DNA of 50,963 bases from Verrucomicrobiia bacterium (lineage in GTDB: Bacteria; Verrucomicrobiota; Verrucomicrobiia; Limisphaerales; UBA8199): positions 1 through 50,963 of the forward strand of contig DASYZB010000047.1 of NCBI GenBank assembly GCA_035946615.1, written 5' to 3'. Below the pieces are notes generated by a model. That model was not told where the DNA came from, ran no database searches, and saw only the letters and a program-made list of their open reading frames with translations. The translations under genes were made by a program, and so were the position numbers. Shown in pieces: positions 2,171 through 46,093 of the stretch. The first letter of the stretch is position 1. Each line of letters begins with the position of its first letter.

Positions 2171-2926
2171 TTACTTCACCCCATTGACGAGCGGGGCCAG
2201 GCCCTGGATGCGCACTTCGAGGCGGTCGCCCGATTCAATGCGCCCCACCCCGCTGGGCGTGCCGGTCAGGATAACATCCCCGGGCAACAAGGTGAGATTG
2301 GTGGAGATAAAACTGACCAGCCTAAAACAATTGAAGATGAGATGGGCCGTGTTCGAGTTCTGGCGCAACTGGCCGTTTTGGAAAAGCTGGATGGTGAGAT
2401 CGTGCGGGTCGATCTTGGTCTCGATGTAGGGGCCCAAAGGCGTAAACGTATCGAAAGACTTCGCCCGGGTCCATTGGCTCTCCCCGTTCTGTATCGTGCG
2501 GTCGCTGATGTCCTGGGCGGGGGTGTAGCCTAAAATATACCGGGAGGCGGCGGCTGGGGTGACGTTGCGCACGCGGCGTCCGATGACAACCGCCAGTTCC
2601 GCCTCGAAATCCGTGCGATGGTTGGGGAATGGCACTTCGATCTTGCCCCCATCGGGCAGCAGCGACGTAGTGGCTTTAATCCAGAACAACGGCTCCTTGG
2701 GCAAGGGCTTGTTGGTCTCCCGGGCGTGGTCGGCGTAATTGAGGCCCACCGCAATAATCTTGGACGGCACCACCGGCGTCAGGGTGCGGACCCCTTTAAG
2801 CAAGGTGGGCTTCCGATCAAAGGAAGGGGAGCCGAAAACATCTCCGCGCAAGCGGAAGACTTCGCCGTCCACGACTTTGGCGTAAAAGATTTCTTCGCCC
2901 TTCTGAAATCGGCCAATGGCTGCCAT
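2171..2926 (-). CDS. Fumarylacetoacetate hydrolase (FAH) family protein
   Basis: 251 residues from the ATG at 2926; an upstream TTG at 2947 is an alternative start. The protein has the FAH-domain pattern: KIIAVGLNYADHA in the N-terminal part, then TDFEAELAVVIG with the acidic metal ligands, YTPAQDISDRTIQ, WTRAKSFDTFTPLGP and the C-terminal LLPGDVILTGTPSGVG. Members use Mg2+ or Mn2+ to cleave C-C bonds or decarboxylate acylpyruvates, oxaloacetate or hydroxy-dienoate compounds in the cytoplasm. The substrate cannot be read from sequence. It is the last gene of a minus-strand run after ribD, about 150 bases away, and a frame-broken copy of its 3' end lies at 940-1042. Confidence 0.88.
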   Translation of the reverse strand: MAAIGRFQKGEEIFYAKVVDGEVFRLRGDVFGSPSFDRKPTLLKGVRTLTPVVPSKIIAVGLNYADHARETNKPLPKEPLFWIKATTSLLPDGGKIEVPFPNHRTDFEAELAVVIGRRVRNVTPAAASRYILGYTPAQDISDRTIQNGESQWTRAKSFDTFTPLGPYIETKIDPHDLTIQLFQNGQLRQNSNTAHLIFNCFRLVSFISTNLTLLPGDVILTGTPSGVGRIESGDRLEVRIQGLAPLVNGVK

Positions 2927-3073
2927 AAAGCGGCTGATTTCTAGCAAAGACCAGGCCCTGCTCGCAAGGTAAAAGGAAGCGAAGCGGGCGCAAGTCAGGA
3001 TTCCTCGAATGCGCGTTTTTTCAGGGAACTGCTTTCAAGACTATGAGCTACTCAAATTGAACGGTGGGGAGCA

Positions 3074-4204
3074 CTACCGGAGCGCGACCTCAGCTTCCAA
3101 AAGCCAATCGGGACCGATTCGGCGCCATTTGACGTTCTCAAGCTGGATGATTTCATCGAGGCGCCCGGCGCCCTTGCCCGCAACGGCTTTGCGCGAATTG
3201 CTTCCACCGAGAATCTTTGGCGCATAAAAAAAGGCCACGCGATTTGCCAAACCGCTGAACAAGAAAAACGCGTTGATTTCTCCGCCTCCTTCGACCAACA
3301 AACTGGTGATGTCTTGGCTTCCGAGTTTTTGCAATAACCAGCGCAGGTCGATTTTGCCGTCGCGGGCCGGGGCGGTCCAAACTTGGACCTTTCGGCCCAA
3401 GGCTCGCGCGCGCCGGGGCGGGGCCGACCGGCTGATGACAATGGTGGTAAGGTCTGCTTGCATGTCGGTCACGACCTTGGCGGTCAAAGGTGTGCGGGCG
3501 TTTGCGTCCAGAATAATCCGGCGCAAGTCCTTTCGGGGCTGGGGGGTATTTTGCCTTTTTCCCACGGCTCGGAACGTGAGGCTCGGATCATCGGCGAGGA
3601 CGGTGTTGATTCCCACCAGAATGGCATCCGCACCGCGGCGCATCTGCATGGCTTCGAGGCGGGCGGCGGGGCTGGTAATCCATTTGGATTCGCCGGTGGC
3701 GGTGGCGATTTTCCCATCGAGGGTCATGGCAGCCTTCACCGTGACCAACGGGGTATGGTGAACGACCCAGTGATTGAACGCTTCGTTGAGTTGCTCGCAT
3801 TCCCTGGCCAGGATACCCGAGGTGACCGCGATGCCTGCGCGGCGCAACAGCCTGAATCCCTTGCCGCAGTGCGCCGGGTTGGGGTCGGTGGCGCCGGCTA
3901 CGACTCGCGTTACCCCGGCGGCGATAATGGCCTGGGTGCAGGGGGGGGTGCGGCCCGTCGTGCAACAGGGCTCGAGAGTGACGTAGAGGGTTGCGCCGCG
4001 TGTGGCGTTTCCCTTCTTTTGCGCGTCGCGCAGGGCCTCAATTTCGGCGTGGGGTTCGCCCGCGCGACGATGCCAGCCTTGGCCGATGATTTCGCCGCCT
4101 TTGACCAGGAGCGCGCCGACCATGGGATTGGGGGAAGTCTGCCCAAAGCCGCGGCTGGCTAAACGCATCGCTCGGCGCAGAAAGCGTTCAGGAAGTGTAG
4201 GCAT
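3074..4204 (-). CDS. ribD: Bifunctional riboflavin biosynthesis deaminase/reductase RibD
   Basis: 376 residues from the ATG at 4204, preceded by GGAAAG at a good distance. The N-terminal zinc deaminase domain shows H52-A-E54 and P79-C80 ... P-P-C89, the cytidine-deaminase-like metal site and proton shuttle. The C-terminal reductase domain (about 150-376) begins VTVKAAMTLDGKIA and includes ILVGINTVLADDPSL and the SLLVEGGGEINAFFL stretch near the NADPH site. The enzyme deaminates the GTP-derived pyrimidine and reduces its ribosyl side chain in the cytoplasm, the second and third steps of riboflavin synthesis. No other rib genes are in the window. The length is normal for the family. Confidence 0.95.
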   Translation of the reverse strand: MPTLPERFLRRAMRLASRGFGQTSPNPMVGALLVKGGEIIGQGWHRRAGEPHAEIEALRDAQKKGNATRGATLYVTLEPCCTTGRTPPCTQAIIAAGVTRVVAGATDPNPAHCGKGFRLLRRAGIAVTSGILARECEQLNEAFNHWVVHHTPLVTVKAAMTLDGKIATATGESKWITSPAARLEAMQMRRGADAILVGINTVLADDPSLTFRAVGKRQNTPQPRKDLRRIILDANARTPLTAKVVTDMQADLTTIVISRSAPPRRARALGRKVQVWTAPARDGKIDLRWLLQKLGSQDITSLLVEGGGEINAFFLFSGLANRVAFFYAPKILGGSNSRKAVAGKGAGRLDEIIQLENVKWRRIGPDWLLEAEVALR

Positions 4205-37351: not shown

Positions 37352-37410
37352 TCCGGGTCTTCCATACAGGACCAATGACAAAGTCGAAGCAACGAGCCGC
37401 CCTTGCTAAA

Positions 37411-37509
37411 TGTAGGAGAGGACGTAAGGAGTCTCTGATTAGCAACGTCTTGATGAAGCAAGGGCGGCTGGCAGACAATGATCAGAGACTCCTTACATCG
37501 TCTCCTACA
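37411..37509. repeat. TGTAGGAG inverted-repeat element, copy 1 (MITE-like)
   Basis: The arms TGTAGGAGAGGACGTAAGGA and, at the other end, TCCTTACATCGTCTCCTACA are reverse complements with two mismatches, and the match continues through GTCTCTGAT. The 41-base middle is unlike the arms. A second copy with the same arms and a related middle lies at 44184-44288. The element cannot encode a protein, so it is a candidate non-autonomous mobile element. Confidence 0.75.
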
Positions 37510-37560
37510 ACTCCCCCACAAAGGGTTGGAACCTTTCCTCGTCATTGTGCCTGATGTTCC

Positions 37561-43292: not shown

Positions 43293-43313
43293 AATTGCTC
43301 GAAATTGACCGGC

Positions 43314-44153
43314 ATGAGCATAGTATCCAATGATGTGAATCGGCCGCAATTCAAAGCCTTTACGCTCATCGAGCTTCTGGTTGTCATTGCGATCATCGCC
43401 ATACTGGCGGCGTTGCTCCTGCCGTCGCTCTCGCGGGCCAAATCAAAGGCTTATCGGACCCGGTGTTTGAGCAACCTGCGCCAATTAGCCGTTACTTGGG
43501 AGCTTTATGCGGATGACAATCAGCAGGTCCTGGTTCCAAACGGATACGGGAGCGAGAATGATCCGAATGCCCCCAGACTCTGGGCCGTGGGCGATGAACA
43601 CATCCATCCCGAGGCGTTCACCAACACCAGTTACCTGCTCGATCCCAAATATGCGGCATTCGCACAGTACCTCCATACAAAGGATGTCTATAAATGTCCC
43701 GCGGACCGAACGACAATCTCGATAGGCGGCCAGAACATTCCGCGAACGCGCAATTACGCCCTGAACGGTTACCTGGCCTGGAGCTATCCCTCCGATAACG
43801 CGCTATTGAGCCCCTCATGCCAGGCGTTTAATAAAGCCTCCGATCTGGCCGCAGCCGGCCCAAGCCGCATTTACAGCTTTGTCGATACTTCACCGGAGAA
43901 CATTTGCTTCTCAGCATTTGTGCTCTTTATGGGAAACTCAGGATGGTTTTGGCATCGGCCCACGATCGAGCACGACAACTCCGGTGTGGTTGCTTTTGCC
44001 GACGGACATGCGGAGGTCCGTCGCTGGCTCGACCCCGCGACTATGAAAGCAGCGCGCGACGGCGGCAACGCCGATGGGGCGCACTTCACTTTCGTGGACC
44101 CGAATAATGGGGACCTTTTATGGCTGCAGCAACATGCCACCATCAGGAAGTAA
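43314..44153 (+). CDS. Pseudopilin-like protein with prepilin N-terminus and H-X9-DG C-terminus
   Basis: 279 residues from the ATG at 43314; a TTG at 43305 would be in frame. After 15 residues comes [18 protein letters not shown], then [20 protein letters not shown], as in the pair near the window start. The H-X9-DG motif is [12 protein letters not shown], followed by [12 protein letters not shown]. Prepilin peptidase processing and membrane anchoring are expected. It is a separate locus from 129-1965, showing that the family is scattered. Confidence 0.87.
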
Positions 44154-44183
44154 GGCTCAGGCTGGATGAAGCGAAGATATAAA

Positions 44184-44288
44184 TGTATGAGACGACGTAA
44201 GGAGTCTCTGATCAGCAACTTCCGGGTAAAGCAAAGGCGGTCGGCAGAAACTCATTTTGATTAGAGACTCCTCACGTGGTCTCCTACA
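44184..44288. repeat. TGTAGGAG inverted-repeat element, copy 2 (MITE-like)
   Basis: The arms TGTATGAGACGACGTAAGGA and, reversed, TCCTCACGTGGTCTCCTACA enclose a middle related to copy 1 (AGCAACTTCCGGGTAAAGCA). Length about 105 bases. Both copies lie after the 3' end of a coding gene, as expected for a neutral insertion site. Confidence 0.75.
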
Positions 44289-44336
44289 AAAGTTTGATTG
44301 GCCCTGGCGAGCGGCCTGAACGAGCCCAATAACCAG

Positions 44337-44366
44337 TTGACAAACGCCCGAAGCGTGCCTTAGAAT
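44337..44366 (+). promoter_or_regulatory. Sigma70 promoter upstream of the structured RNA and tRNA-Asp
   Basis: TTGACA at 44337-44342 and TAGAAT at 44361-44366 are separated by 18 bases. Transcription would begin near 44373, at the 5' end of a long stem (44372-44386), and then reach tRNA-Asp at 44497. Confidence 0.7.
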
Positions 44367-44371
44367 AAATT

Positions 44372-44491
44372 AAGTTCGGGTGGCAGTACGTTTCTTCAGC
44401 GGGGTTCCCCACCCCCACCTCCTTGGCGTCTGCTGCCCGGACTTGGGTTCTGCTTGACGGCTGGGGAAAGGTTCCTTACGTTCTGCTGCCC
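44372..44491 (+). ncRNA. Candidate structured RNA, unidentified
   Basis: From the predicted start, AAGTTCGGGTGGCAG (44372-44386) pairs with CTGCTGCCCGGACTT (44430-44444) over 15 positions, three of them G-U. Alternatively GGGTGGCAGTACGT (44378-44391) pairs with ACGTTCTGCTGCCC (44478-44491) with one mismatch, closing just 5 bases before tRNA-Asp. The two stems share their 5' side, so they are mutually exclusive. No SRP RNA, 6S, tmRNA or RNase P motif was recognised and no open frame of note is present. It may be a stable RNA, a processed tRNA leader or an attenuator-like switch. Confidence 0.5.
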
Positions 44492-44496
44492 TAAGC

Positions 44497-44573
44497 GGGG
44501 GCGTAGCTCAATTGGTTAGAGCGCTGCCCTGTCACGGCAGAGGTTACGGGTTCGAGCCCCGCCGCTCCCGCCA
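44497..44573 (+). tRNA. tRNA-Asp (anticodon GTC)
   Basis: 77 bases including an encoded CCA. Acceptor GGGGGCG pairs with CGCTCCC, D arm GCTC/GAGC, anticodon stem CTGCC/GGCAG with loop CTGTCAC (anticodon GTC), T arm ACGGG-TTCGAGC-CCCGC with one A-C mismatch, discriminator G. It ends 6 bases before the convergent gene at 44579. Confidence 0.95.
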
Positions 44574-44578
44574 CTGTT

Positions 44579-46093
44579 TTACCGGCACAATTTAACGATT
44601 TTGCTGGTCTTCGTCCTAACAGCCGTCCTAATTTTCCAAGATATGAACGCCTGGAACGTGGCCTTTTCCCGGTGGCGCACGCGCTGGCGCTCGGCGCAGT
44701 GAGGTTCACCTGGACTGTCGCCCTGGTCGTGGACCGTATCTGCGAAGTGAAATGGGCCGACACCGATGGTATTTGTCCACAGCGATTGCCAAACCGACAT
44801 TGCCAAATCCGTGCAAGCCTCGACACTGACCACTTCGTTGGAATACCCCGCAACATCAAATTCAAAACCACTGGGTCCCATTCCGTTTCCAGCGACGTCA
44901 ATCCGCGGTGCGATGTTCAGAGCGGTGAGCGCGCCTGCGCCTGCGTTCCCGCCCTTGTAGGGCGTCCCGTATAATGTTCCGCCATACAGCGTCAAGGGAC
45001 CCGGCTCGGCTCCATCGCTGTTGATGAAGAATTCTGTACCGTTGCTCGTCCTGGTAAAATGGTGCAGCACGGTGTACCCGCAGCCGTCCATCCGCAATGC
45101 GAACAGAACGCCGCTGCCGTAGTACCCCCCCACGCGCGTGCTGCCAAATAACGCGCCGCCGCAAGATTCCAAACCGGATTGCGTATAGTAACCGTCGGTG
45201 TTCGTTCCCGATACGGGGTCGAGGGGTGAGAACGTTTTCAAAATATTATACTGGGTGCCATCGGTGCTGAGTTCGTAAACCATGCCGCCCGAGTTGCCTC
45301 CATCGGCCGTGCCGTAAATCCACCCCCCGGAGCCAACCAAGTGGTATCGGGGACTGGCTCCGTCCGCACCGCTAAAGTTTTTCACCGTTGTGAAGCCGCT
45401 TCCATCCAGACTAATCGAAAAAACCGTGCCATTACTCCCGGACCCTCCCCCGACGGTTGTTCCGTAAAGCACACCACCGGAGAGGGTCAGCCCGCCAACC
45501 GGCAGCAGTCCATCACCGCCGCCAAAGCTGTGCAGCACGCCGAAGCCCGAGCCATCGGTATTGACTTGGAAAACCGTGCCCTTGCCGAAATCACCACCTG
45601 CCGCCGTAGTGCCGTAAAGGATGTTGCTCACCAGGAGCAATTCCCCATACGGCGCTTTGCCGTCGGGACCAGAGAACTGTTTGAATGCATTGAAACTCAG
45701 CCCGTTTGTCTTCAAAGAAAACAAACTGCCCAGGCCGTATAGCCCGCCCTGCGATGCCGTGCCGTAAAGCGTATCGCCATCTACAATAACGCCGCCGAGC
45801 AGAGTCGCGCCGTCTGAGTTGGTGTTGGCACTCGTACCGTTGTAAACCGTGGGCGGAAAGGTCTTGATTATTATGTAGCCGGTCCCGTCGGAATTGATTC
45901 GAAAAATCCCAGCACCGCCCGGTCCATACAGACAGTTCCCTGTGTAGAGCGGTCGGGCAAAGCCACCCGGCGGAAAGGAAGTCGGGAAACTGTAAAGGGC
46001 CTTAAAGCTTTGCGCCTCCGTTGTTACCTGGCTTGCCAGTATGCAGCCGAGAAAAAACAACACAGCCGAACGGGCGCTCGATGTGGTTTTCAT
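44579..46093 (-). CDS. Secreted Gloeo/Verruco-type repeat protein
   Basis: 504 residues from the ATG at 46093, with a signal peptide (SAVLFFLGCILASQVTTEA). It consists of about ten repeats of roughly 40 residues built around LYGTTxxGGxxGxGTVFxxx and xDGSGFxxLhxF, the signature of the Gloeo_Verruco (TIGR03803) family, predicted to fold as a beta propeller. The extreme C-terminus after FHFADTVHDQGDSPG turns into basic, unrelated sequence (EPHCAERQRVRHREKATF), which may reflect a frameshift that removed the usual ending. Function in the family is unknown. It faces tRNA-Asp tail to tail. Confidence 0.8.
   Translation of the reverse strand: MKTTSSARSAVLFFLGCILASQVTTEAQSFKALYSFPTSFPPGGFARPLYTGNCLYGPGGAGIFRINSDGTGYIIIKTFPPTVYNGTSANTNSDGATLLGGVIVDGDTLYGTASQGGLYGLGSLFSLKTNGLSFNAFKQFSGPDGKAPYGELLLVSNILYGTTAAGGDFGKGTVFQVNTDGSGFGVLHSFGGGDGLLPVGGLTLSGGVLYGTTVGGGSGSNGTVFSISLDGSGFTTVKNFSGADGASPRYHLVGSGGWIYGTADGGNSGGMVYELSTDGTQYNILKTFSPLDPVSGTNTDGYYTQSGLESCGGALFGSTRVGGYYGSGVLFALRMDGCGYTVLHHFTRTSNGTEFFINSDGAEPGPLTLYGGTLYGTPYKGGNAGAGALTALNIAPRIDVAGNGMGPSGFEFDVAGYSNEVVSVEACTDLAMSVWQSLWTNTIGVGPFHFADTVHDQGDSPGEPHCAERQRVRHREKATFQAFISWKIRTAVRTKTSKIVKLCR

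Follow-up and report, generated by a model that had tools for sequence, protein, structure and literature searches.

Several bacterial RNAs have been described that resemble the one analyzed here. In α-r14/NfeR1, an ultraconserved anti-Shine-Dalgarno (anti-SD) motif lies in unpaired regions, and the stems are highly divergent (PMC10746234). RepG of Helicobacter pylori pairs to G-repeats through its C/U-rich terminator loop (PMC8295292), and the OLE RNA contains a perfect anti-SD mimic, which is required for bS21 binding (PMC12054373). A further small RNA, the 88-nt sRNA-Xcc1, belongs to Xanthomonas (PMC2996969). As for the ribosome itself, the tail of the 16S rRNA is held by bS21, bS18, and bS6 in Bacteroidia (PMC9976891), and some Verrucomicrobia have been listed as scarce in Shine-Dalgarno (SD) sequences yet retaining CCUCC (PMC10783764).

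We analyzed a stretch of 50,963 nucleotides from a Verrucomicrobiia bacterium (GenBank assembly GCA_035946615.1, contig DASYZB010000047.1), hereafter referred to as the window, where an RNA hairpin, its promoter, and a tRNA-Asp gene with its own likely promoter all lie on the forward (+) strand. A σ70-type promoter that matches the consensus at 11 of 12 positions was found at 44337–44366, with TTGACA at 44337–44342, an 18-bp spacer, and TAGAAT at 44361–44366. This was the sole promoter match in 44100–44700, a region for which shuffled sequences average 0.2 matches, and it confirmed an earlier sequence-only reading that had placed such a promoter before a structured RNA. Based on the position of the −10 box, transcription of the small RNA (sRNA) would start at about 44373. 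The hairpin itself, of about 75 nt, occupies 44371–44445 and is defined by its fold, by a family of similar sequences in relatives, and by covariation. Its folding energy was −38.6 kcal/mol (z −5.0), a value equaled by none of 200 shuffles, and the fold of the full 44337–44573 segment was unremarkable (z −1.05), with 32 of 200 shuffles as stable or better. The 5′ arm of the outer stem, formed by the covarying helices 1 and 2, spans 44374–44391 and has the core GGGTGGCAG at 44378–44386, and the 3′ arm spans 44427–44445 and includes the first of two copies of CTGCTGCCC, at 44430–44438. Enclosed by these arms are an apical hairpin, GGGG-UUCCCCA-CCCC, at 44401–44415, where four pairs covary, and the unpaired strand CACCUCCUUGG at 44416–44426, which is nearly invariant in the alignments and whose CACCUCCUU is also that of the 16S rRNA 3′ tail of relatives. 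A terminator scan of 44100–44700, limited to loops of 3–8 nt, found nothing, and no good T-run lies 3′ of the hairpin in the window copy, so that read-through into tRNA-Asp is possible at this locus. Upstream of these elements, the gene at 43305–44153 encodes a pilin-like protein whose N terminus has a methylation motif, and a palindromic repeat of about 105 bp, REP/MITE-like, is found at 44184–44288 and again at 37407–37510. More copies of this repeat were observed in the source genome (L235, L236, and L034/L221) and in a relative carrying the family (L030/L129); in L034 and L030, a repeat copy is also near an sRNA copy.

The hairpin was then compared with known RNA families. At the gathering cut-off of Rfam 15, the tRNA was the sole match in the window, and no family covering the hairpin was retrieved from 44150–44650 at E values up to 5, in agreement with the sequence-only reading, which had recognized no known family. 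A divergent 6S RNA (RF00013), likewise a small RNA with its own gene, was rejected as a candidate: the hairpin was unmatched by this family, and the 6S RNA proper is located elsewhere in the source genome (contig 81, 69.9 bits). The sRNA-Xcc1 family (RF02221) was also discarded, with no match in the source genome at E ≤ 10. Searches of the open-access literature returned, among the matches listed, no paper on such an RNA, which is weak evidence. This is a conserved RNA, undescribed in the sources searched.

Covariation was assessed in two alignments. The first, A1, contained 57 of the 74 copies found, and the remaining 17 were left out for being more than 93% alike, cut, or with N. In this alignment, 93.3% of the cells were paired, double changes were present in 18 of the 20 pairs, and 146 cells with double changes were counted, versus 32 in shuffles; none of 500 shuffles matched any of these measures. 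The second, A2, was made of 93 matches, all but one of the sequences being distinct (92), taken from 86 loci of our choice, and because these were fitted to the model, it leans to the model. Here, all 20 modelled pairs showed double changes, with 389 double-change cells versus 94 in shuffles, and when the pairing partner was shifted by 1–3 columns, pairing dropped from 93% to 44–53%. Such covariation scores can be inflated by relatedness among the copies. The apical hairpin, with the general form GGGG-UUCYYCA-CCCC, had four covarying pairs and 98.6% of its cells paired in the 92 distinct sequences. The sequence of the stem varies freely while its pairing persists, and both the apical hairpin and the strand ACCUCCUUGG are conserved; within the loop, ACCUCCUUGGCG is the best conserved piece and is nearly invariant in the alignments. 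The four copies of the source genome have a nearly identical loop and clearly different stems. In the weakest members, L262, L265, L266, and a second match in L101 (23 bits), the apical region is only partly kept, and the last of these is doubtful as a family member. The distant variants L262 and L265 retain CUCCUUGGCG and UCCUUGGCG, with the apical part reduced. A coding peptide is an unlikely explanation for the conserved segment, as the length of the loop region shifts by single bases; it ranges from 41 to 45 nt over columns 24–69 in the 57 copies. Frames were open over 78 nt in 48, 48, and 35 of these copies, numbers that say little on coding.

A DNA search with a 164-base query at E ≤ 1 generated matches in 92 of the 97 genomes of the order, the weakest being probably due to chance, and the best ones had 91–100% identity across most of a 65-base core. 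When the covariance model R1, built on A1, was used at E ≤ 0.001, the sRNA was found in 89 of the 97 genomes, and in 58 of the 60 good ones, at 1–11 copies per genome; the source genome has four. We also inspected 387 genomes drawn from the phylum as a whole, in which R1 at E ≤ 0.01 detected 34 positive genomes, two of them from the order, and the model R2 at E ≤ 0.001 likewise detected 34, in nearly the same set. As 12 candidates were scored per genome, this corresponds to at least 32 positive genomes outside the order. Judged by these sequence comparisons, the hairpin RNA is a family spread through Verrucomicrobiota. Outside the phylum, the search was based on one exact loop pattern and returned at least 118 stretches; among the 80 matches listed, three titles were from another phylum and five read only ‘bacterium’. 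L101 and L126 look mis-binned, because the former adjoins a tRNA-Asp-like gene and the latter has a flanking gene in common with L065. In L102, a contig labelled Candidatus Taylorbacteria, an sRNA copy (2458–2536) is found 267 bp before an IS110-family transposase (2802–3872), and this copy may reflect either transfer or mis-binning. Tandem pairs of the sRNA, about 100–140 bp apart, were observed in L065, L126, L070, and L256, with stems that are different in L065 and L070 and nearly alike in L256.

The presence of multiple copies, up to 11 per genome, the four tandem pairs, and the L102 copy placed 267 bp before a transposase are all traits that a mobile or repetitive DNA hairpin of the REP/MITE type, with no RNA gene, would display. 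We regard this explanation as very improbable, however, since most of the tRNA-linked copies have a promoter at a fixed place, many copies have T-runs, and the loop is conserved above the stem across the phylum. In addition, a 75-base query at E ≤ 0.01 had no match among 72,556 plasmids and 50,697 phages, a result that also led us to reject plasmid or phage cargo. Among IMG/VR viral contigs, L245 and L246 carry the loop, one along with an Abi_alpha gene and the other with DUF4055; in L246, two copies of the loop (at 803 and 1310) are beside the Abi_alpha gene.

The anatomy of the gene was examined in 185 distinct copies, selected because they matched the loop, ungapped, at 24 or more of 35 positions, a sample that is biased to the order and is not random. 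A tRNA motif within 330 nt was found in 77 of these copies and was absent in 108, some of which are cut by contig ends. Among the first 30 loci, ARAGORN placed a tRNA-Asp next to 21, and L004, L006, L017, L020, L022, and L029 contained copies with no tRNA. The stretches of 2–4 kb examined at 30 loci in other orders and classes contained no tRNA. A promoter with a score of at least 9/12 was present in 68 of 75 tRNA-linked copies, versus 6.5% of mononucleotide shuffles, and in 58 of 107 copies not linked to a tRNA, versus 5.2% of such shuffles; the other 49 of the latter group scored below 9. The −10 box was within 1 nt of one fixed place in 54 of the 75 tRNA-linked copies and in 25 of the 107 others, a position from which transcription would begin at the foot of the stem. 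Among the tRNA-linked copies, 56 of 75 had a T-run of four or more after the hairpin, as did 50 of the 107 others (106 of 182 in total, counted with no shuffle control); the remaining 57 of these 107 non-tRNA copies had no T-run of four. Because of the promoter at the hairpin base, the many T-runs, and the 108 of 185 copies with no tRNA, the element looks like a stand-alone sRNA gene, and it is highly probable that 44371–44445 is such a gene. Analysis of the flanking genes revealed no partner common to the family. The largest flank cluster had 16 left-hand members, and the three that were scanned were histidine kinases carrying a cNMP-binding domain. On the right-hand side of sRNA copies flagged with a tRNA (L013, L016, L019, and ten more loci), 13 proteins formed a cluster; when three of these were scanned, Phage_integrase was matched by one above the cut-off and by another below it, and the third gave nothing. 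The tRNA-Asp gene may be an integration site.

In the window, the tRNA-Asp (GTC) gene is located at 44497–44573, and the sequence-only reading had joined it with the promoter and the hairpin in a single unit, a two-state leader in which the 5′ arm would pair with either copy of CTGCTGCCC and thus govern RNase P processing or termination. Both copies are indeed present, 52 and 105 bases after the 5′ arm, and the second one, at 44483–44491, ends five bases before the tRNA, as had been stated. The frequent vicinity of tRNA-Asp (21 of the first 30 loci) and the possible read-through at the window copy, which has no good T-run, are also compatible with such a leader. The two pairings fared differently when compared across copies. 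The first extended to 11 bp or more in 75 of the 77 tRNA-linked copies, and its stability (z −5.0, reached by 0 of 200 shuffles) and strong covariation within Verrucomicrobiota uphold this half of the proposal. The second arm is not conserved: two of the 77 copies, those of the window and L005, had its core, TGCTGCCC, in the 26-nt stretch that precedes the tRNA, and the longest helix between the pre-tRNA stretch and the 5′ arm had a mean of 5.65 bp, versus 5.92 in shuffles, that of the window being 9 bp. Since the arm is found in 2 of 77 copies and its pairing is no better than that of shuffles, the second stem is taken as a chance likeness. Moreover, TTGAC was present between the hairpin and the tRNA in all 77 copies, where shuffles expect 6.2, and in 71 of 77, the best-scored promoter of this gap had its −10 box 12–18 nt ahead of the tRNA; the gap promoter score on its own is weak evidence, as 35% of shuffles reach 8/12. 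In the window, the best-scoring pair of boxes in the gap is TTGACG-17-TACGTT at 44454–44482, a likely tRNA-Asp promoter, and the second CTGCTGCCC is placed directly after its −10 box (44477–44482). From the TTGAC in 77 of 77 gaps and the placement of the −10 box, the tRNA-Asp is most likely a separate downstream gene with its own promoter, which speaks against the single unit, as do the copies with no tRNA: 108 of the 185, those in six of the first 30 loci, and those in the 30 tRNA-free loci outside the order. With this promoter and these copies, control of the tRNA by RNase P is not supported. The two-state switch was unsupported across the 77 tRNA-linked copies, and we consider it extremely improbable.

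The stand-alone sRNA gene leads to the question of how its product would work. A 16S tail was located in 11 of 40 relatives, but not in the source genome, and its sequence was GGCTGGATCACCTCCTT; the loop strand and these tails have CACCUCCUU in common. Hfq (PF17209) was detected in none of the 40 genomes, the source genome included, in a search whose controls were positive in 5 of 14. Because the loop is conserved while the stem drifts, the loop strand is anti-SD-like, and Hfq was not found, we propose that the sRNA acts in trans. According to this proposal, transcription driven by the sRNA promoter would begin at the foot of a single long hairpin, which in many copies would double as a terminator with the T-run that follows. 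The RNA would then act independently of Hfq through the ACCUCCUUGG strand, which could pair with a limited number of mRNAs where their translation start regions are rich in purines (GGAGG-like) and in this way block or retune translation, in the manner of anti-SD sRNAs; α-r14/NfeR1 and RepG are precedents for action through such a strand. The ACCUCCUUGG strand is probably the working site, and for pairing with mRNA rather than binding of protein, our confidence falls slightly short of even. The chain as a whole, with the first two steps, sRNA gene and working site, weighted most, stands at about an even chance. In short, the sRNA gene is well supported, the working site is likely, and the partner is a candidate mRNA or protein.

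Two observations weigh against mRNA pairing: the order shows little SD signal, and a search for complements produced no clear target. In the first start-site test, a crude one on 159 sequences, an SD match of at least 4 nt was found in the order at 23.3% of 632 first versus 22.4% of 2255 internal ATGs, compared with 51.4% of 37 versus 17.9% of 134 in the E. coli control, and 41.5% of 41 versus 25.5% of 98 in other classes carrying the RNA. A second test, at 120 aa, gave 54.7% versus 57.7% of 655 in the order, 71.0% versus 45.2% of 31 in E. coli, and 75.0% versus 41.7% of 24 in S. meliloti; at 200 aa, the separation of the controls was weak (S. meliloti, 72.7% versus 63.6% of 22; E. coli, 72.0% versus 56.0% of 25). 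In the window alone, GGAG or GAGG preceded 7 of 36 first versus 14 of 149 internal ATGs, a hint of some SD use. With regard to targets, and in favor of pairing, the complement of the loop strand had, with up to two mismatches, 351 sites in the source genome versus 212 for the reversed pattern, the sRNAs included. Exact 13-nt complements were seven, four of them the sRNAs, and at the other three, any start codon of a frame longer than 50 aa overlaps or abuts the motif, too close for an SD sequence. Ten of the 24 one-mismatch sites listed were examined, and a start codon was found 3–10 nt on in L224, L229, and L244. The complement search of the source genome thus returned no clear target.

The protein bS21 was found in 93 of the 97 genomes of the order, and GGAWGTGA was present upstream of the rpsU start in 12 of the 13 genes placed among 30 loci. 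In the rpsU leaders L273, L281–L285, L289–L292, L296, and L300, this motif ends 6–7 nt before a TTG or GTG start; by our reading, its fit is slightly closer to the 16S tail than to the sRNA. An alternative to mRNA pairing is that the RNA imitates the 16S tail, binding a protein or factor that holds it, such as bS21, bS18, bS6, or a maturation enzyme, and that it would tune start-site choice or ribosome assembly. The CACCUCCUU common to RNA and tail, the presence of bS21 in 93 of 97 genomes, the little SD signal in the order, the listing of some Verrucomicrobia as SD-scarce with CCUCC kept (PMC10783764), and the OLE mimic needed for bS21 binding (PMC12054373) are in line with this alternative. 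Yet the RNA is also found in other classes with an SD signal (41.5% of 41 versus 25.5% of 98), G045, G064, G066, G068, G080, G089, and G090, some of them incomplete, have bS21 but no copy of the RNA, and the ATG counts of the window (7/36 versus 14/149) hint at some SD use, so we consider both the imitation and its tuning effect less likely than mRNA pairing. A bolder form is that, in a lineage that seems to have abandoned most SD initiation yet retains the anti-SD sequence, a phylum-wide imitator of the 16S tail binds the bS21-type proteins holding this tail and sets which ribosomes use rare SD messages such as that of rpsU; this form is speculative and unlikely. A different sort of RNA, serving as a scaffold or bound by a protein and resembling the anti-SD sequence as a secondary matter, would agree with the conservation of both the internal loop and the apical hairpin, with the lack of a clear target, and with L262 and L265, where CUCCUUGGCG and UCCUUGGCG outlast a reduced apical part; we find it rather unlikely, because the best conserved strand is precisely the anti-SD core and no candidate partner protein comes with this explanation.

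Returning to the proposed Hfq-independent sRNA, the RNA is likely important, since it is present, frequently as multiple copies, in 89 of the 97 genomes of the order, and its loop is near-fixed while the stem drifts. An anti-SD sequence is here carried by an RNA in a lineage with little SD signal and with Hfq in 0 of 40 genomes, and this raises the questions of RNA regulation with no Hfq in such Verrucomicrobiota and of the role of the anti-SD sequence retained in SD-scarce bacteria.

When compared with the described systems, the hairpin RNA shares with RepG a C/U-rich loop strand, and a T-run of at least four follows it in 106 of 182 copies, though not in the window copy. Like the OLE RNA, it is a non-ribosomal RNA carrying a copy of the 16S anti-SD sequence; the OLE RNA is about 600 nt long and has its mimic paired in the P6 stem, whereas the hairpin RNA is of 75 nt, with the mimic in an internal loop. 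With α-r14/NfeR1, it has in common a conserved anti-SD motif that is unpaired and stems that are free to vary, and both traits were found here. NfeR1 has three hairpins with CCUCCUCCC, and the verrucomicrobial RNA consists of a single one, in which ACCUCCUUGG is found and the apical hairpin is conserved; moreover, NfeR1 is rhizobial, and the hairpin RNA belongs to another phylum, Verrucomicrobiota.
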